Shown in pieces: positions 6,309 to 52,005 of a DNA stretch of 64,000 nucleotides. The notes beneath the pieces were generated by a model. That model was not told the DNA's origin. It did not search any database and worked only from the letters and a program-made list of their open reading frames with translations. A program made the translations under genes and the position numbers. Position 1 is the first letter of the stretch; each line of letters opens with the position of its first letter. Source of the DNA: Clavelina lepadiformis (taxonomy: Eukaryota; Chordata; Ascidiacea; Aplousobranchia; Clavelinidae); the NCBI RefSeq assembly GCF_947623445.1, contig NC_135241.1, positions 7,194,501 to 7,258,500 of the forward strand, read 5' to 3'.

Positions 6309-6960
6309 CTAATGAACAAATTCAACCCACATATAAAGTTATTGTCTAACTCTAACGTATAACTGTGGTTTCAACATATCTAAGCTGACTATATTATGGA
6401 TAAATTTGTGGTGAAGTTTCGGTAAAATTGCTGAACAAGCTTCTGTGGTCAAAGTTGGGTTATAAGAGTTCTGCTGCGATTATTCCAATTATAAAGAGTC
6501 ATCCGCTTCAAACGCTCTATTTTATGGGCGAAAATACTACATTAAAGCAACAACTATACTTAACCGATAAATTATCTGGTAAACGTTGCTTGTGGAAAGG
6601 TGAGGATGACCACAAACTTTTTTTGTCCTAGGGCTCGAAGACTTTTTCCGTAAACTATCGCATGAAGCGATAGATTGTCGGAAATACAAACCAGCTGCAA
6701 AAGCCTAGCAGCTTAAAGTTTAGCAAAATCAAATTTAATAAGCTTTTTTTAAAGCGTGTTTGAAAGTTTAACATGTGCAGCATAAAGTTCATTAAAAGTT
6801 TAGTGAGGAAATAAAATGTAAACGAACGAGTTGCCAAAACATGTTATTTTTATATATAATCTATATTGTATACGAAATAGCTAAATTAACCGCCTATTGT
6901 GCTAACCAGACCTTAAGCTTTTTCTTTCCGCTCTGTCCTAAAGCTCGATTTTTTTGCAAA

Positions 6961-8280
6961 ATGACTGATCTATTACTTATATCAATCATTTTGATTGTTA
7001 GTGTCATATTATCCCAAAATGTGGGTTGTATGCCGCAAAGCGCCTTGGAAAATGAAGCAAATTTAGAAGATATGAGTCAGCTGTCAGAATTAAATAACTT
7101 TAACGACTACACCATGGATATTCAGCCTAACACCGGGCTGTACCCATCACTGTGTGGAGTTTTGTCTAATTCTACGCTATCTGGCAATGTGCTTTGTCCC
7201 AGAGGGTGGATAAGTTTGAAGAACGAGACGTTATGCAATCTACCAGACACGACAAATATACATCCATGCACTACCCAAGTTGACGAAAGACGTGTTCAGT
7301 TCCGTTCCTATGATGTGGAGTCTTTGCTTTGTCGTAATAAGAATTTGCACTGTCTTGGGAATGTTATTATACCAGGTAACGTACAGAGCTTGTCGCTGAA
7401 ATACAACAAACTGTCTGATGGGATTGAGTTAAAAGAGACATTAAGCCATCTGTCAGAATTAGTTGCCATTAGCTTGGCATCAAATAATTTCTTGCCTCTG
7501 ACGACGTCACTTTTCGAGTTTAATCTTGAGCTGCGAGAAGTTGACCTTAGTATGAACTTTATACTGGATTTACCTGAAAACTTGTTTTTCAACAACGCAA
7601 AATTAAAAACTGTATTCTTAGTGGGCAACCAAATCCAATATTTACCGTGGTATTTGTTTTCGCGAAATCGTCGTTTAGAAGTTGTCAGTTTTCAGCGCAA
7701 CAACATTAGTTATTTTCCAGTGGATTTGTTCTACGACAACCCACGGCTCCGGCTAATCAATTTTGCAAACAACAACATTGAAGATGTCCCACCCGAGAGC
7801 TTTGCGCGAAACGAAGATCTCCGTGAAATTAATATTTCCGGTAATAAGTTGAGAAAAATATTTCACAACTTTCTTTCAACATCTACCAACTTGGAAGTTC
7901 TTAGCATGTCGTACAACAATATATTTTCTATTCCGGAACTTTTTCTTGCCAATTGTATGAGTTTAGAGTACGTAAATCTTGCGTATAACAACCTGGTCAC
8001 ATTGCCTATCAGGTGGTTACACAACCACAGAAAACTGGAGACCATCGATTTGGCAGGAAACCATTTATTAAGCGTACCAGATGGAGCCTTCCAAAATAGC
8101 CCAAAAATGAATGTGAGGGGTATCGGGCAAGATCGTCATAACTTGAGGTATCGAATAAGAACTTGGTACCAATTACTAAACGGAGTTTCTCGTGAACAAT
8201 ACAACTCATCCTTGTTTCGTATGACCAATCACCGCAATTCTTTTAGGAAGTTTGCATCTGAAAACATGATATACTTGTGA
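6961..8280 (+). CDS. secreted leucine-rich-repeat protein (439 aa)
   Basis: A single-exon frame. I start it at 6961 rather than at the upstream in-frame ATG at 6841, because MTDLLLISIILIVSVILSQ is a clear signal peptide directly after this Met. After an N-terminal region with several cysteines (about 60-135), about ten tandem leucine-rich repeats run from about residue 140 to 385. They follow the typical extracellular 24-residue pattern (LxxLxLxxNxLxxLPxxLF). Examples are LREVDLSMNFILDLP and LETIDLAGNHLLSVP. There is no membrane segment or GPI-like tail at the C-terminus and no obvious cysteine-rich C-cap. The product is therefore expected to be secreted and to act in binding or recognition. 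The exact ligand or subfamily cannot be told from the sequence. An unspliced gene is unusual beside its multi-exon neighbours. Confidence 0.85.
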   Translation: MTDLLLISIILIVSVILSQNVGCMPQSALENEANLEDMSQLSELNNFNDYTMDIQPNTGLYPSLCGVLSNSTLSGNVLCPRGWISLKNETLCNLPDTTNIHPCTTQVDERRVQFRSYDVESLLCRNKNLHCLGNVIIPGNVQSLSLKYNKLSDGIELKETLSHLSELVAISLASNNFLPLTTSLFEFNLELREVDLSMNFILDLPENLFFNNAKLKTVFLVGNQIQYLPWYLFSRNRRLEVVSFQRNNISYFPVDLFYDNPRLRLINFANNNIEDVPPESFARNEDLREINISGNKLRKIFHNFLSTSTNLEVLSMSYNNIFSIPELFLANCMSLEYVNLAYNNLVTLPIRWLHNHRKLETIDLAGNHLLSVPDGAFQNSPKMNVRGIGQDRHNLRYRIRTWYQLLNGVSREQYNSSLFRMTNHRNSFRKFASENMIYL

Positions 8281-42690: not shown

Positions 42691-42696
42691 CCATCG

Positions 42697-43351
42697 TACG
42701 GTAGCCTGTAAAGGCCACAACAATTATAATTTGGGTTCCACAAAATATTTATGATCGCCACAAAAATATTTCACGTTAGCGCAAAATATTTATGATCAAC
42801 ACAAAATATATTACGGTAGCCTGTAAAGGCCACAACAATTATAATTTGGGTTCCACAAAATATTTATGATCGCCACAAAAATATTTCACGTTAGCGCAAA
42901 ATATTTATGATCACCACAAAATATATATTTTTCTCAGCAAAATATTTTAGAAATTCACAATATATATTTTGTCTCCCTCTAAAATTATTTTGTGCTTTCA
43001 AATTATTTTGTGCGTTGAAAAAATATTGCGACTTCGAAATATTTTGCGAAGTCGAAATATATTTCGCTGTGAAACTTCCACTACCGCAACAAATATAAAT
43101 TCGCCGCACAATATTTTAGAATCGCCGCACAATATTTTAGAATCGCCGCACAATATTTTAGAATTCGATCGCAACATTTCACAATGTGTGCTTACTGCAT
43201 GGTAGGCGTAGTTGATGAGGTCTTCGGGAAAGGAATAAGGTTACCGGTCACAGCCACAAATAGTGAGAGATAGTAAGCTTTTGCAAGCCTTAACAAGCTT
43301 AGGTGCAGACTACATTGTAAGGTCTTTTGCAAGTTCAGTATGCAAACAAAC
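42697..43351 (+). repeat. left terminal inverted repeat with internal duplications
   Basis: It is longer than its partner because its first 115 bp occur twice in tandem (42697-42811 and from 42812, each starting TACGGTAGCC). It also has three copies of a 21-bp unit (CGCCGCACAATATTTTAGAAT, about 43092-43160) where the right end has two. A short extra copy of the word AATTATTTTGTG lies near 43003. The whole repeat is dense in variants of CAAAATATTT, a near-palindrome that could be a binding-site array. Confidence 0.88.
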
Positions 43352-43579
43352 TTTCTAGGCCTAGGGCTTGGCTGTATAGGTTAGGCCTACCGAATGTAAG
43401 GTATAGGGCTATAGGCTATGTTTTTCTTTTGTCGCGAAAACATTACAATAATTTTTTCTTGTTTACTATAGGACAGGCCAAAGCTGTTCATAACAGCATA
43501 AATTTTAACTGACTTTTTCAGAAATTTGTTTTATAAAATGAAGTGTACCTTCTTAGTGTGAAAACTGATCTTCATTGCA

Positions 43580-45022
43580 ATGAATTGTGTTGAGTGCCAT
43601 AATGAAATACCTGACATTTTTGTGATATGTTCACACTGTGGTCACGGTGAGTAGCGTACCTTTCAAGTGAAGATATAAATATTTTAATGAAAATTTGGCT
43701 GTAGACTAACATATTTTTTGTTTTCTTTTTTACACCGACAAGAAATGTTTTACCTAAATCGAATGTGTGTCTGTGTATTATTATTAATAACGAATTATTA
43801 TTTAGTAAAAAATATATCATACAACGTGCCAAGTCATGTGTCAAAAGTCCACCTGTTGTTTTTATGTTTTGCAGCTACTACTTTGGATCAAGATCAAATA
43901 ATATCTGAATATTTCCATTCAGGATATGAGTATGGAGAAATTTTACAATTGCTACACAGTCGTCATAACTACGCAATCAGTATGAGAACTTTAAAGAGAC
44001 GATTGCACAAAATTGGACTGCGAAGAAAATGTGGCTGGAAAAAAGACATCACCGTTTTATTTCAGGCAGAAAAACGTATCGAGGAGTTGTTAGATGGACC
44101 CTCTTCTTTTGGTGGATATCGGTCAGTTTGGCACACATTACAAATGGAAGGTTTAAGAGTACCAAGGTTGTATGTAGCTGATGTACTACGTAATATTGAT
44201 CCGAAAGGGTGTGAGGCTCGAAGAGCTCACCGTTTAAGGCGAAGAGAGTATCACAACCCTGGGCCAAATTATGCATGGCACACAGATGGTTACGACAAGC
44301 TGAAACCATTCGGATTTTCTATACATGGTGCAATTGATGGATTTAGTCGAAAAGTGCTGTGGCTTAATGTTACACGATCAAACAAATGTCCACATATTGT
44401 CGCTAATATGTATATTAAAGCTGTCACTCACTTCCAAGGCTGTCCGATTGAAGTAGTATCAGATTTGGGTACAGAAAATGGACTGTTGGCAGCAGCGCAG
44501 TGCTTTTTTCGAGATAACATTAACTCGCATCGTTATGTACCATCACCCCGAAATCAGCGGATAGAAAGCTGGTGGTCAATATTCTCCAGATTTCGTGCCT
44601 GTTGGTGGCGCAACTTTTTTAGTGACCTTGAGTTTCGAGGTATTGTGGATTTCTCCCAAACACTCAGCAAAGAATGCTTGTGGTATTGCTTTTCATGTTT
44701 AATTCAAAATGACTTAGATTTTTTCAAGGACCACTGGAATACTCACCGAATAAGAAAATCTCGACATAATGTAATTGCAGGACGGCCAGATTTACTATAT
44801 TCCATGCCAGAAAGATATGGAGGAATTTCTGGCTTATTAAAAAACGTTGCACCACACAACATTAGTTTGGTATTGGCTGAAATATCACAACCAACTGAAA
44901 CTGAAGACTATCAAGAATATTTTGATTATGCTACATCTGAACTTGGACAAGGAGTGCCATCTTGTTGCACTGAAGCCTTAGATCTGTATAAAATGCTTAT
45001 GAATGTAGCCAGAGACCGATAA
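43580..45022 (+). CDS. integrase/transposase with N-terminal zinc ribbon (404 aa, 2 exons)
   Basis: The predicted enzyme catalyses DNA strand transfer for the surrounding element and would act in the nucleus. Exons are 43580-43646 and 43875-45022, a phase-1 join totalling 1,215 nt. Exon 1 encodes a compact zinc ribbon with C3, C6, C17 and C20 (C-x2-C-x10-C-x2-C). Residues about 26-75 look like a helix-turn-helix (IISEYFHSGYEYGEIL, MRTLKRRLHKIGLRRK). The retroviral-type catalytic core follows: D160 in WHTDGYDKLKP, D219 in VVSDLGTENG and E253 in NQRIESWWS, with 33 residues between the second Asp and the Glu. IHGAIDGFSRKVLWL is a further core hallmark. This group matches the 'integrase core domain' proteins scattered in animal and fungal genomes (family knowledge). 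The gene converges on the HECT gene, with 414 bp between the stop codons. All catalytic residues are present, so activity is plausible. Confidence 0.9.
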
Positions 45023-45436
45023 ACGGAACTATTTATTTCTGTGTGAGCAAGTAATGTAAAGTTTATTGCCTATCATTTTAAGTCTATCAACATAAATGTC
45101 GTGTTTTGTATTACTTTTGTATTGCATTCATCATAAGCACGATTCTATTACACTGAAAAACTATGTATCGAAATTTTAGCAGATACACTTGAAGAAATAC
45201 AACTGTAGCTCACAGAAACATTACACTTGAAAAGAATACTGAAAATCTCACAGAAATATATCTACTGTACCACAACAAGCATGCAACATAAATACTGCTA
45301 AACACACAAAAAAATTACTAATTACAGGAAAAACTCAGTTTGGCAAGCTTTGTTTATAAACATTAAACAGTGGTCATTACACATTGAAGGCAAGTGAAAT
45401 AGGTTCAACAACTAAACTAATGTAAAATATAAAATT

Positions 45437-48400
45437 TTAATGCAGTCCAAATGCTTGAGCATTACATATTGCCGTTAAAAAGATAGACCTAAAATCGTTT
45501 TCTTTCTCCATGTGCTTTGTTGGTAGTGTAACAACCCTACCGCATGCTCCAACTACAGGGTAGCAAATACTGTGTTTTGGATTATTTTCCAAACAGTTGT
45601 GATCGAACTGCACCGAAATTTGAAGGTCGTTCCCAAATATAGGCCTGTGTTTCTGGCCTGTTAGCCAACCCAACACACCTGCAGGTGTCAAGTCAGGAGG
45701 AGTACATGAAATTAAATGACAATCATTCTCGTCGTTAGCCAAGATTTCATGTCCAGTTACATTTAACTTATTGTCCTCTAAATGCATTAAAAAATCCACA
45801 AAGTTATCCATTATTTTTTCTTCCACAATTCTTTTCGAGGAATTTTCATCAGAGTGATTGGGAATTAACAGACTTGCAACATAATTTGCATCAACAGCAC
45901 GCTCAGACGATGTGATAAAAAGAGGTTCAAAAAGCAATGGATTCCTTTGTAATGCTTCAAATATTCCAAACAATTCCAATCCAGATAAAAATTCTTTAAG
46001 ATAACACAACCGCCTGTTAGTGATGCTGACCATGAGTGTGCGAGTTATGTCAGTAGTATGATCAGCAGACACTAAACCAGTGTACCCATGTTCTAGAATA
46101 GTGTCACTATAAGATGGATTTGACGGATCATCTGAAATACGTTGTATAAGTTGCTTTTCGGATTCTGTGAAGTGAATGTGAAGATCAAGCTTTCTAATGT
46201 CAATAGAGTTTATTGCTGTTAACATTTTGAACACGTTGGAGGGAAAACAAAATGGAGCGGGCCCACCTTGCACTAAACTTGCAGCAATTATTTCACCGCA
46301 TGTTTTAAAATAACCATTCTGCACATAAAGCATGGAATCAACTGGACTACCATCAGGACAAAAATGTTCACGAATTAAGCGAACTACAATGGCGAAGAAT
46401 TCTTTTGCCATTGCACCTGAATCGATACCATTTTCACCTTGAAATTTTACAACCACTCTTTTATTTGCCGAACCTTTAGTGTTCACCTCCCTTTGCCAAA
46501 GGGCAAGGTATCTCGCAACAGGTGCACTTCTTCTCACAATAATGTACAGTTGTTCTGCATCATCAATGTTTTTGTTCAAATCAGACAGGACTTCACATAT
46601 GTTTTCATATTTTTTAATTTGAGACTCATTCTTTTGTGAACTGTCACATTCTTTATTAGCAGTCTTTTGAAGTTCATCGATGCTAAAGCAATCAATAAAA
46701 TTATGTGGGTCACTAAAAAGTGTGGTCAAGGGAAAATCGGGAAGCAAGTCATCTTCCTGATGTTCTGCTGCATCTTCTTTTTCTTCTTTAACAAGATACA
46801 GGAAAATTCTACTGTAATCTTTTCCAATGTTTTCTTTGTACTTAATTATGGTAAATGGTTCATCAGTTCCCGGCAATAGATCAATAATACGACCATCTCT
46901 GAATGCAAGATAATAACTTGCCCCATCATCATGACTTTTTGGATAAAATTGTAAGTATTTTTTAACTGCTTTTTCCAAAATTGAGTCAACAGATTCTGTT
47001 TTGCCAATGTTTAGTAAAATTGTTTGGTTTCTAATAGGCTTTAATTCAAAATCTTTTCCACCTCTTTCCAGCATTCCTATTTGAACTCCTACTTCATTTG
47101 GTTTTGACTTTTTCGTTACCCTTTCTTTCCATTGAGATCCCTTCACAGCTTTGTATTGTCCGAATGACATGACATCACTTTTTCGCTTCAAAGAATGTGT
47201 ATCTGTCAATATAAATTAGTATTTATTACTATCATGCCCTGCCTCTGCAGCATAAAATCTTCATCGTGCCTTATTGAATAAACATGGTCTGATCGGTTAA
47301 GGCGCTGTTATGCTATAATTTCATGAAAATGTGGGACTTTCAACGTAATGGTTAAAAAAGTGTGTTAGACCAATCAGATACCAACATGGCTGGTGTTGTT
47401 TTTCAGTGTAGGGATTACCCTAGCAAATGGCGTGTTAAAAACTTGCAGAGCGCATGATTAGGTTGGCCAAAATTGTATGTGGAAATTGATATTTCACTTT
47501 TATGGCTCAAAATTGCAGTCTTGGCTTCAACATTCTATTGCAAGAGTTAGAGACAAGTGTTTTTATTAGGTGTTTATGAAGTAACAGCCTAAGGCATACT
47601 AAATTGACATATAAAATTTCAGGGGGCCCCCATACGGAACTTTGATTTGTTGCATTTTAGTAATTTGGCTTTATAACAAAATAAACAAAGAAATTCAGCC
47701 TTTTTCCAAGCATAAATGGCGCCTTAAAACACATGCTTAACAATTTTGTATATTTTGCTGTGCAAAGTTTTTTTTTAATAAACCCTTCAGTTATATATTG
47801 CATCAATTAGCATTATGACCAGATAAACAATTTCTCATTGTCCCAAAAAGATGCTGCATATGTAAGTTATTTCAAATAGCAATAGACAAAACTGCAAAAA
47901 AGAAAAAAACTTGCACTGGTAAGCACTGTAACAAAACATATGTAAAGGGCTACATTTTCTTGAAGATGAAGTGCTTTTAAACTCTAACAAATCGTTGCAA
48001 TACCACTATAGCAGTGGTTCCCAAACTATGGTACACGTACCACTTGTGGTACGCCAGCAACTTATCAAGTTTACACCAAATGATCTTTTATTATGGTCGG
48101 CATTATTTTAATTCACATAAATTAGGTAGAGTATGAGCAAATTTCATGCATTATTCCCTACTGAATACTAATTCCTTAGGGTATTGACACATTGGATCGT
48201 GAAACAAGCGTTTCTTTGTGACGAAATAGAACGTCATTTATTACTAGGTAATAAATCCTTGAAGTCAGTTTTTATAGTCCTACAATGTAGGTGGTACAAG
48301 AACGCTGCATAAACCAAAAAAATGGTAGGCGAGTAGATAAAGTTTGGGAACCACTGCACTATACACTGTCTGTAACTTCCACCCGATTTCGCTATCAACT

Positions 48401-49674
48401 TATACCCAATTAGAAATCTAATGTAAAATAATTACACACAATTAAATAACTTTAAACTTTCAAACCATTTGAGTTGTTCTCCATCAAGTTGTCATGGCAG
48501 TTACTTCTGTTTTCCTTTGAACTAGTCTCATCACAGAAGTTCTGTGTCTCAATACTGGAATGAGGTTTCTCTAAAAAAAGCCATAACTGAAACAAAAACC
48601 AGAAACATGCATAGCAACATTTTTCAGTTCTAAACTTTGCAACAGGGCTAATCAATATCGTATCTTAAACTGGTAGATTGCAAATGTTCTGCGCAAGTAA
48701 ATCCCACATTATTCAAAAATTGGTAAGGTGTTTATCTTTAGCGCTTCTCAAATTAACAAAATGTAAATTAAATTAAGTAAATTTCCCCAGCATTTGTTCA
48801 AACCTGCCAAAAACCTTGCCTGTCAAAAATGTCACTAATTTATTAGCTTTGAATCATTACCAGATGACTGATGTTAAAATAAAGCATTATGTCACGGGAT
48901 TATTTTTATGCACCTGTTTTGTAGAGACCACATTATACACCGTCTTTTCTTTGCATTGTGTTGTTTTTATGCATGTTCACTGTCTGCAGTATTTTACTTG
49001 TTTATGTTCTTTTACTTGTTCTTGTACACCTATTTTTATCAAATTTCTTGTGACGTCTGACGTACTTACCCCAAAGGCCTAATTAGTATCGTGTTTTACG
49101 TTCCACGTTGATTCCTTCATTGCGTGGAATTTGTTTGGTGTAGTACTGTGCTCGGCTGGGCGACGGTTGTCGGTAGTTACGTTTTGGTTTTAGAGTAAGG
49201 TTGATGTTTTTATGAAAGAAAATGCCATTAAACGTTAACAAGGCAAAACCGGCTGAGTGACTAGCCGTTAAGGCGGGAAGATTCCTGGCTAGGGAAAATT
49301 TTGGTTACAATTATACCCTTAGTTTCCAATTATCTGAACGAGCCAATTTGACTGGCATCTTTTACTTTAATAGTGACAATCACACATGCGTTCAGAAACC
49401 TTTTTATGGTAATATGATTCACAGCTTACAGTTTAATTGAATCATCCAATCAATCAATAATTCTGTTTATCATAAGTAATATGTTACAAAAAACTTTATA
49501 CTTATTCCATGTATTGCATAGACCTGTCACATGGTATAATGTATTTAAGATTAAACTGAACTTACCTTGCCCACAAAAGCCGCAAAATAAATGTGTTGAA
49601 GAGAGTACTTTTCCACAGTTTGTGCAATACATTGTGCAGATCATTAAATATTCTAATGTACTGGAATCTGACAA
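45437..49674 (-). CDS. transposon-borne HECT-type E3 ubiquitin ligase with zinc ribbon (624 aa, 2 exons)
   Basis: HECT ligases pass ubiquitin through a catalytic cysteine to a substrate. Exons are 49674-49566 and 47202-45437 (phase-1 join, 1,875 nt). Exon 1 encodes MSDSSTLEYL and then a zinc ribbon with C17, C20, C31 and C34. Residues about 37-150 form a basic region and a possible ubiquitin-like fold (FELKPIRNQTILLNI, then SYYLAFRDGRIIDLL). An acidic linker follows. The HECT N-lobe begins near 275 with VVVKFQGENGIDSG; the C-lobe ends GACGRVVTLPTKH with candidate catalytic Cys590, and the chain closes 34 residues later with the family-like AICNAQAFGLH. The intron (47203-49565, 2.4 kb) contains a hAT-like element. 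HECT proteins of this sort are often found in transposon contexts in aquatic animals (recollection, not checked). Its role for the element, perhaps degrading a host factor, is inference. Confidence 0.88.
48012..48356. mobile_element. hAT-like miniature element in the HECT gene intron
   Basis: Ends CAGTGGTTCCCAAACT (left) and CAGTGGTTCCCAAACT (right, reverse complement). The flanks CACTATAG (48004-48011) and CACTATAC (48357-48364) match at 7 of 8 bases. GGTACACGTACC and GTGGTACAAG words are inside. Non-coding, 345 bp. Confidence 0.78.
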
Positions 49675-50107
49675 TTTGTCAACAAGTGAAACTGACTATG
49701 AGCACTTTTTTATATAAGTAAACTGACGATTATAGTGTAACTATAGTTAAATAATGAACAAACGGGTAACGTCACTAAATACACAAACAAACATCTACTT
49801 CATCATAATTATTGTGATGTATCATTGTAATTACTGCTGTGTAGCAGCTGGACTTATCGCTACAATTGCATTGTTTATTTTTCGCCAATAGTTGTGCTGT
49901 GCCATAGTTACGATGCTAACTATTACAGTTATAGCACAATAAAACACAATGCTCACTAACATTTAATGAGCAGGAAAAAGTGTCAAACTTTGAGAGCTTA
50001 AAACATGCATGATAGCAATAATAGTATTTGTGCAATAACGTGGAAGGTTAACATAGTTCTTCATATTTAGGTCATCTTTAAATAGTTCAAATTAAAAATA
50101 CGAAATT

Positions 50108-50391
50108 AGGGGTTCTTAAACTCTTAGAAATGGTGCCAAAAAACTTGTGTCTCTATCCCATTGCAAAATAAAACAAAACAACAAGTTATGTGCGTGTAAC
50201 TTTCATCATTGGACTGCAATTTGGAAAACAAACCATTGCCAACCGACAGCAATTGAACTTGGTTGTGAAATAATCAACCCAGTAGCGAAACCATCCAGTG
50301 AAAAAAATCCAGCTGTCGTTGTCATAGCTCAAAGAGAATTTTTCGTGCCACCTTAAGAACCTTACGTGCACTCCAATTTCATAACCACTGG
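50108..50391. mobile_element. possible hAT-like miniature element
   Basis: Starts AGGGGTTCTTAAACTC and ends, as reverse complement, CCAGTGGTTATGAAATTGG. The flanks ACGAAATT (50100-50107) and ACTAAATT (50392-50399) match at 7 of 8 bases. The inverted ends are poor, so this is tentative. Confidence 0.4.
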
Positions 50392-50494
50392 ACTAAATTA
50401 CTTATACTGGCTACAAATTATACGCAAGTACAATCCTGCTTTATAACTAAGTAACATAGAACATAGTAGTCCCAGCTCTAGTGAAGCTTGTGGC

Positions 50495-50914
50495 TAGGGG
50501 TGGTGATGGCAAGACTACTTCCATGGCAGACGAGTTTAGCCTGGTGTTGGAGGAGAGTGGTACTCACAAATCCTTCTCGCTCTATAAAGACCGCAGATTC
50601 AAAAGATTGGGTCACACTGCTGGTACGTTGGTTGATTGTTGTAGAGCGTTGCCAGCAATCCGACTTCGTCCGGATCCTTCCTAAACTACACAAAGATCTT
50701 GAGAGGGCTAATCTGGAAACCCTGTCTGAGTTCCATGTTCCCTGGAAGCATGTGAATGCTGAATCACACAGCCCCACAACAGACCTCGACCATTACTTAG
50801 TTACTGCTATGGCCAAGCAGAGTGCACTTGGCCTCAAGATGCAATGTGGAAAAGAGTACTGGGAAGACGAGACAGAGAATAGTGAGAGGAGTACAAGGAA
50901 TCCATCCGGAATTT
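50495..50914 (+). pseudogene. frameshifted protein fragment inside the transposon
   Basis: The reading starts in one frame (LVARGGDGKTTSMADEFSLV, then THKSFSLYKDRRFKRLGH). It continues after a frame change as FVRILPKLHKDLERANLETL, then HVPWKHVNAESHSP and DHYLVTAMAKQSALGLKMQ. Base composition is less AT-rich than the surroundings and both parts look like genuine protein sequence with balanced helices. I do not recognise a named family. It may be the remains of a third element-encoded protein, or a captured piece of host coding sequence, with an internal deletion around the frame change. Confidence 0.45.
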
Positions 50915-51486
50915 GAACAAAATCAAAAAAATTTTTTTGCACGTTCCTAGGTATGTCCATAGGCACCTTTTAAACTCCAGTTCTGTTGTGTTACTTGAAA
51001 AAAGTCAAAATCACCCCAGTATAGCCCACTGCTATTTTAAGGATGTTTGCTGATGTCACATTTGCAAGAATATTTAACAAAACATGTTCCAAAAACTTGA
51101 TAAAAATACCCAATCGTGTCGAAGAGTTATAAGAAGAAGCCGGGAAAGGGAAGCTGAGCACACAGCTATTTTGGAGAATTGGTGACAGAAATTACACAAC
51201 TGCACTTAAAAAAAGTGACAATCATATATTATGTGGGTTTAGTATATATGTGCACAGCCACATGATGCCTTTGTAAAATGAAACCCAACTACTCAAACTA
51301 TGTCGTCAACTGCAAGGTTGTATACTACACCCTTATTAATTTGGGAAGGCTACAATATCTTTAACTTTTGGTTGAAACGTGTCTATAGCGTTTGGTCCTG
51401 TTCCAGGTAACTTTTTATAATGTTCCACCCAGCTTAGGCCTATATACCTAATAGTAATCAAGACAAAAGCCTTCAACATTTTCTTT

Positions 51487-51999
51487 GCAAGTTTGTTAGC
51501 ATACTGAACTTGCAAAAGACCTTACAATGTTTAACGTGTAGCCTACACCTAAGCTTGTTAAGGCTTGCAAAAGCTTACTATCTCTCACTATTTGTGGCTG
51601 TGACCGGTAACCTTATTCCTTTCCCGAAGACCTCATCACTACGCCTACCATGCGGTAAGCACACATTGTGAAATGTTGCGATCGAATTCTAAAATATTGT
51701 GCGGCGATTCTAAAATATTGTGCGGCGAATTTATATTTGTTGCGGTAGTGGAAGTTTCACAGCGAAATATATTTCGACTTCGCAAAATATTTCGAAGTCG
51801 CAATATTTTTTCAACGCACAAAATAATTTTAGAGGGAGACAAAATATATATTGTGAATTTCTAAAATATTTTGCTGAGAAAAATATATATTTTGTGGTGA
51901 TCATAAATATTTTGCGCTAACGTGAAATATTTTTGTGGTGATCATAAATATTTTATGGAACCCAAATTATAATTGTTGTGGCCTTTACAGGCTACCGTA
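51487..51999 (-). repeat. right terminal inverted repeat
   Basis: Reverse-complement partner of 42697-43351, matching from the terminal TACGGTAGCC inward to the word GTTCAGTATGC(A/T)AACAAACTT. It carries a single terminal copy and two 21-bp units. Confidence 0.88.
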
Positions 52000-52005
52000 C
52001 CATCG

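Follow-up and report, generated by a model that had tools for sequence, protein, structure and literature searches.

A two-gene IS3EU-type DNA transposon of the sea squirt Clavelina lepadiformis that carries an apparent HECT-type ubiquitin ligase gene beside its transposase

The window considered here, a stretch of 64,000 nucleotides from the genome of the sea squirt Clavelina lepadiformis, contains at positions 42697–51999 a complete DNA transposon, in which a gene for an integrase-type transposase and a convergent gene for an apparent HECT-type ubiquitin ligase are enclosed by long terminal inverted repeats (TIRs). The element is bordered by a target-site duplication (TSD), CCATCG, which was read in the sequence at 42691–42696, matched to the right flank, and read again at 52000–52005. 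Alignment delimits the left TIR (42697–43353, forward strand, beginning with TACGGTAGCC) and the right TIR (51489–51999, reverse strand, ending with GGCTACCGTA). The arms 42812–43353 and 51489–51999, about 0.5 kb each, share 496 of 502 aligned bases (98.8%), while positions 42697–42811, at the extreme left end, duplicate the terminal 115 bp (42812–42926) in tandem with 99% identity; the CCATCG duplication adjoins the outer one of these two 115-bp copies. The termini of the element read TACGG...CCGTA. Re-reading and alignment bear out the positions of the ends, the TIRs and the CCATCG duplication proposed in a first-pass annotation of this DNA. The left TIR also contains ten AAATATTT-type sites where a first-order Markov model predicts 0.27, and these are candidate binding sites for the transposase.

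The transposase gene lies on the forward strand. Its first exon (43580–43646) carries the start codon and a C4 zinc ribbon of the form CxxC-x10-CxxC (Zn_Ribbon_1, E 0.0011, below the Pfam cut-off) and ends in phase 1, and its second exon (43875–45022) encodes a helix-turn-helix-like region, from a weak Pfam match, followed by an rve/rva_4 DDE core recognised by Pfam, alignment and fold. The product of 404 amino acids has a full-length match to a Clavelina lepadiformis protein from which it differs at 2 residues. Pfam reports rva_4 (4e-30) and rve (4e-4, below its cut-off); beside the core it lists only the weak C4 ribbon and no integrase HHCC domain, although absence from such a listing carries little weight. 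The predicted structure, with a mean predicted local distance difference test (pLDDT) of 84 and a predicted template modelling score (pTM) of 0.83, resembles the cores of IstA, TnsB and retroviral integrases. The catalytic residues D160, D219 and E253, already named in the first-pass annotation, are confirmed, and they do not vary in an alignment of 30 relatives picked from 120 that were listed out of 1674 homologues.

The second gene lies on the reverse strand, convergent to the transposase gene, and encodes a protein of 649 amino acids in three exons. Exon 1 (49566–49644) has the start codon and, again, a C4 zinc ribbon (CxxC-x10-CxxC) with a phase 1 end; exon 2 (48466–48570, 35 codons) is present in the NCBI protein P0121, and the ends of both exons were read from the sequence. 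Exon 3 (45437–47202), interpreted from sequence, model and alignment, encodes a region predicted to form strands and helices, followed by a HECT N-lobe and a C-lobe with the likely catalytic cysteine. The positions of the two convergent genes are as first annotated, except that the earlier two-exon reading of the HECT gene missed the middle exon; the alignment of the C-lobe places the likely catalytic cysteine not at Cys590 but at C615 of 649 (C580 without the middle exon), where it aligns with the cysteine of host HECT proteins. It is kept in all 20 relatives, out of 43, that reach the C-terminus. An alignment by hhalign of the HECT profile with two host HECT genes is weak overall (probability 0.3 of 100, E 0.24), so that the assignment of the cysteine rests on the C-lobe alignment, and a search of the PDB with the C-lobe profile A3 gave no match. 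The predicted fold and the position of the cysteine are those of HECT E3 ligases such as HUWE1, SMURF, NEDD4 and E6AP; unlike these, the protein of the element scores below the Pfam HECT cut-off and carries an N-terminal C4 ribbon. It is apparently a very divergent HECT-fold protein and E3 ligase.

Further copies of the inverted repeat, which the first-pass annotation had suggested seeking in the genome, are present. A TIR search of the 209-Mb host genome returned at least 41 matches, with 40 of 68 candidates scored, and 20 further genomic regions were fetched beyond the window copy. Counting L032 and L033 as overlapping regions of one locus, and excluding L035, L039 and L041 with one recognised end each, 17 loci including the window copy have both ends. 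Perfect 6-bp duplications, all different, flank 13 of the 17, against none of the 182 cross-pairings of flanks used as a chance control, so that the TSDs exceed what chance would give. Fifteen copies were extracted, leaving out L036 and L037 (about 2 kb). TA stands at both ends of 13 of the 15; L025 has one AACGG end, and in L029 the right end is split by a nested copy, beyond which it continues as CCGTA. This nested copy is L030, which is inserted into the right TIR of L029 and flanked by a CTTACA duplication, and which provides an internal empty-site comparison. The TIR arms within a copy are 98.5–100% identical in 14 of the 15 and 93.5% identical in L038, which indicates recent movement. 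An empty site of the window copy with a single CCATCG, also suggested in the first-pass annotation, was not found in this assembly, where the search returned just the two flanks of the copy itself. Between about 1.46 and 3.65 Mb of contig C1 of the genome (G000), in the region of L036 and L037, many TIR matches cluster in pairs roughly 2 kb apart, and L037 lies within a palindrome, its flank copies being inverted rather than direct.

The two genes have multiplied as one unit, as is best seen from a nested insertion. HECT intron 2 contains, at 48012–48356, a miniature inverted-repeat transposable element (MITE) with the ends CAGTGGTTCCC...GGGAACCACTG and a near-8-bp duplication, CACTATAG/CACTATAC, which was read in the sequence and followed by genome search; from its ends we take it to be hAT-like, and it has many relatives at other places in the genome. 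The same MITE with shared flanks is found in HECT intron 2 of seven copies (the window copy, L025, L027, L028, L030, L032 and L034), all of which match the full-length query at 93–100% identity, other long matches reaching at most 88%. The whole unit therefore multiplied after the MITE had inserted, both genes moving together, which leads us to reject a mere chance juxtaposition of the two within one pair of TIRs. In 3 of the 15 extracted copies (window, L025 and L027), transposase exon 2 and HECT exon 3 are both open. On the shared tag, the individual TSDs and these open exons, the pairing of an integrase-type transposase with a HECT gene in one mobile element, as first annotated, holds, and the independent movement of the two genes that would have spoken against it is not seen in this genome.

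The remaining copies are degraded in several ways. In L032 most of HECT exon 3 survives, but the transposase is truncated. The transposase is open in L028, L030 and L034, which have in common a single large HECT deletion but differ in their TSDs; L024, L029 and L031 share another HECT deletion and a damaged transposase, L024 and L031 having TSDs and L029 none. The HECT C-terminus is kept in L042 and L043, and no HECT match was obtained in the extracted copies L026, L038 and L040. When the genome was searched with P0121, 49 matches at exon level were obtained. Four of them are long and belong to the window copy, L025, L027 and L032; the rest are pieces, many within listed elements, and include three broken HECT pieces (C1:3521779, C4:21790864 and C4:24870695) and several lone ribbon-exon matches. 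This search returned no long copy of the HECT gene of the element outside elements and, by position, none of the 68 genomic matches to the Pfam HECT family falls within the extracted copies; a recent capture of a sea-squirt HECT gene is thus unsupported.

Two stretches of the window copy vary between copies. That at 50464–50905, a fragment of another repeat or gene family, occurs among the copies only in that of the window; two blocks of it recur at six other genomic places at a distance of roughly 150 bp, so that they must be set apart either by something like an intron or by a deletion. About 395 bp (47237–47631) are missing from L025 and L027. Elsewhere in the window, positions 6796–8280 hold an open frame of 494 codons that looks leucine-rich-repeat-like by eye.

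The TACGG...CCGTA ends, the 6-bp TSDs and the rve-type core of the element fit the known IS3EU/GingerRoot superfamily, to which it would belong on these features. According to the excerpts of the literature on which this comparison draws, IS3EU, which has been in Repbase since 2013 and is classed together with GingerRoot, ends in TA..TA and as a rule has TSDs of 6 bp (PMC10045372), and the IS3EU families of rust fungi have TAYGG..CCRTA ends and 6-bp TSDs (PMC12730594); an integrase-like DDE transposase is a further shared property (PMC10045372, PMC12730594). The families bearing TET have a TET/JBP gene between the transposase gene and an alpha-kinase gene in opposite orientation, and so share with the element of Clavelina a second enzyme gene opposed to the transposase (PMC12730594). 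In contrast with the IS3EU elements described in these excerpts (PMC10045372, PMC12730594), the second gene is here of HECT type, and both proteins have an N-terminal C4 ribbon. No paper joining IS3EU with HECT was found, whereas Repbase, which lay outside this search, might hold HECT-bearing IS3EU elements.

Other groups of transposons fit less well. Polintons, or Mavericks, carry a protein-primed DNA polymerase and capsid genes; a 6-bp TSD alone would suit them, but beyond the two genes the longest stop-to-stop frame listed in the element has 143 amino acids. Ginger1 and Ginger2 are reported, in the excerpt consulted, with TSDs of 4 bp, or of 4 or 5 bp (PMC10045372), as opposed to the 6 bp found here. 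Ubiquitin enzymes encoded by transposons nevertheless have precedents in the RING finger of Chapaev/RAG1 and in the deubiquitinases of Helitrons. The excerpted source on the RAG/Transib/Chapaev lineage describes DNA transposons with a ubiquitin-ligase domain and a RING finger of RAG1 with reported ubiquitin ligase activity; there, however, the RING is fused to a transposase of another family, while in Clavelina the HECT gene is separate (PMC4411706). Helitrons with VTD or OTU deubiquitinase domains, proposed by the authors cited to protect proteins needed for transposition, likewise encode a ubiquitin enzyme, yet they move by the rolling-circle mode and their enzyme removes ubiquitin, which the HECT protein would add (PMC9741609).

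Both genes of the element open with a short C4 ribbon exon followed by a phase-1 intron, and this likeness suggests, from the sequences, a common targeting module of the two proteins. Ribbons at the N-terminus, whose cysteine pairs stand 9 to 12 residues apart, occur in 4 of 120 listed transposases (P0001, P0090, P0096 and P0120) and in 5 of 43 HECT proteins (P0121, P0126, P0130, P0134 and P0144), and beyond residue 80 the pattern is found in none of the 163 proteins. The five HECT proteins come from Clavelina, Dendronephthya (two), Oculina and Stylophora, the sixth one with a species name, from Xenia, lacking the ribbon; among the transposases with species names, those of Clavelina and Dendronephthya have it and that of Paramuricea does not. 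Among the proteins scanned, only P0130 has a Pfam ribbon score above the cut-off. A comparison of the DNA around the two first exons gave a best match of E 0.001 over 39 bp that does not join the exons, so that a duplication of the exon is not supported.

Among corals, relatives of the HECT protein are on record for Dendronephthya, Oculina, Xenia and Stylophora. The transposase P0008 and the HECT protein P0131 have the same longest contig size, 6344, as do P0019 and P0143 with 35566, and the two transposases are 91% identical and the two HECT proteins 84% identical. From the equal contig sizes and the matching relatedness, each pair appears to be co-located. The relatives of both proteins thus seem to travel together in other animals, so that the HECT gene looks like a standing component of the element and not like cargo picked up by accident. 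In viral contigs, no relative was confirmed for P0121 or P0008. A scan of genome contigs confirmed 1 contig among 27 pattern matches, L059, filed as a metagenome-assembled genome of a Cycloclasticus symbiont of a sponge, which has a broken transposase relative (40%) and in which HECT matches reach E 0.68 at best; it is perhaps DNA of the host sponge.

We consider it reasonably probable that this is a two-gene IS3EU DNA transposon with a HECT partner that acts in trans and is sent by its ribbon to the site of the transposase. Several observations weigh against this reading. As for the ligase, the Pfam HECT family (PF00632) scores below its 23.9-bit cut-off for the window protein (18.9–19.1), P0121 (16.7) and P0126 (14.3), and matches 1 of 22 family members at E 0.01 and 1 of 5 at E 0.1; the structural model is middling (mean pLDDT 73, pTM 0.47), Foldseek gives low query-normalised TM-scores of 0.22–0.32 in the 50 rows shown, the root-mean-square deviations are 5–14, and the C-terminus of P0125 (638 aa) is abnormal. 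Selection on the HECT gene within this genome is not significant: a comparison of the window copy with L025 gives 4 synonymous against 6 nonsynonymous changes (P 0.14), and one with L027 gives 5 against 6 (P 0.06). As for the ribbons, most homologues lack one (116 of 120 transposases and 38 of 43 HECT proteins), which may be due, on our assumption, to gene calls blind to introns that miss a separate exon, and the ribbon parts are poorly modelled, with block pLDDT of 60–71 and 31–39. As for the partnership, 1674 transposase homologues stand against 29 HECT homologues with a single query or 41 with a profile, so that it may be restricted, with the caveats that the HECT searches scored the best of their candidates, about 8000, and that the HECT protein is the less conserved of the two. 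Finally, 4 of the 17 loci (L025, L029, L036 and L037) have no recognisable TSD, and the two groups of HECT-deleted copies (L028, L030 and L034; L024, L031 and L029) have also transposed, hence the element can do without the HECT gene in cis, and perhaps altogether.

The explanations that compete with this reading concern the standing of the element and the role of the ligase. That it represents an undescribed superfamily distinct from IS3EU, as the first-pass annotation had entertained, is highly improbable: HECT and a zinc ribbon are unmentioned for IS3EU in the excerpts cited above (PMC10045372, PMC12730594), but its ends agree with both the TA..TA and the TAYGG..CCRTA patterns reported for that group, and the 6-bp TSDs and the rve-type core fit as well. 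It is also quite improbable that the HECT gene is a captured passenger without a role in transposition. The transposition of HECT-deleted derivatives and the selection test within the genome would agree with this, and the insert at 50464–50905 looks like plain cargo; still, related transposases in other animals also seem to come with a HECT relative, the catalytic cysteine persists in each of the relatives that extend to the C-terminus, the genome search turned up no long copy of the gene beyond the elements, and the 68 Pfam HECT matches all lie outside the extracted copies.

Two further explanations grant the ligase a function and differ in its target. In the one put forward by the first-pass annotation, which we regard as possible though rather doubtful, the HECT protein is a weapon against the host that ubiquitinates a silencing, restriction or repair factor for degradation. 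Other transposon genes have been read as counter-silencing or protective, namely TET/JBP in fungal IS3EU (PMC12730594, in excerpt) and the deubiquitinases of Helitrons (PMC9741609, in excerpt). The identity of 32–44% of HECT proteins to P0121 (alignment A1), against 48–58% of transposases to P0001 (alignment A2), is what an arms race would give; however, lower conservation is equally expected of an accessory protein, A1 and A2 hold different sets, and HECT-deleted copies still spread. The other explanation, which we likewise hold to be unlikely, is self-regulation, where the ligase would mark the transposase and so limit its dose or help to dismantle the strand-transfer complex after insertion. 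The presence of a C4 ribbon exon and a phase-1 intron in both proteins fits recruitment to one complex, and the RING finger of RAG1 in the Transib lineage offers a precedent in the excerpted source (PMC4411706), but C4 ribbons are short and common, the likeness could be convergent, and the DNA around the ribbon exons shows no convincing match.

What is known of related families suggests that the transposase would bind the repeated AT-rich sites in the TIRs, free the 3' ends of the element and join them 6 bp apart in the target DNA. Less firmly, the HECT protein may act as an E3 in trans, the deleted copies presumably being served by complete ones. Given the similar ribbon exon at the start of both proteins, the ribbon would most likely bring the ligase to the place of the transposase, be it the element ends, the transpososome or one chromatin partner, where it might ubiquitinate a protein of that complex. 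A repressing or resolving host factor and the transposase itself are about equally likely as substrates. We lean towards the view that the HECT protein is an integral, trans-acting accessory, since it seems to have stayed with the transposase in animals only distantly related and retains its cysteine, while not being needed in cis. Only tentatively do we propose that transposase and HECT protein share a ribbon targeting module and that ubiquitination of their own transpososome, or of host proteins bound at the ends, is needed for efficient movement.

If so, this would be, to our knowledge, a first example of transposition that depends on a HECT protein, retained in both cnidarians and tunicates. 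An apparent HECT-type E3 ligase is in this way added to the toolkit of DNA transposons, in which the TET-bearing fungal IS3EU elements carry an alpha-kinase and TET/JBP instead, and the comparison suggests that a partner modifying proteins or DNA has repeatedly been kept next to the transposase in IS3EU elements. With their open frames and near-identical TIRs in an animal genome of 209 Mb, the copies make the role of this ligase directly testable.

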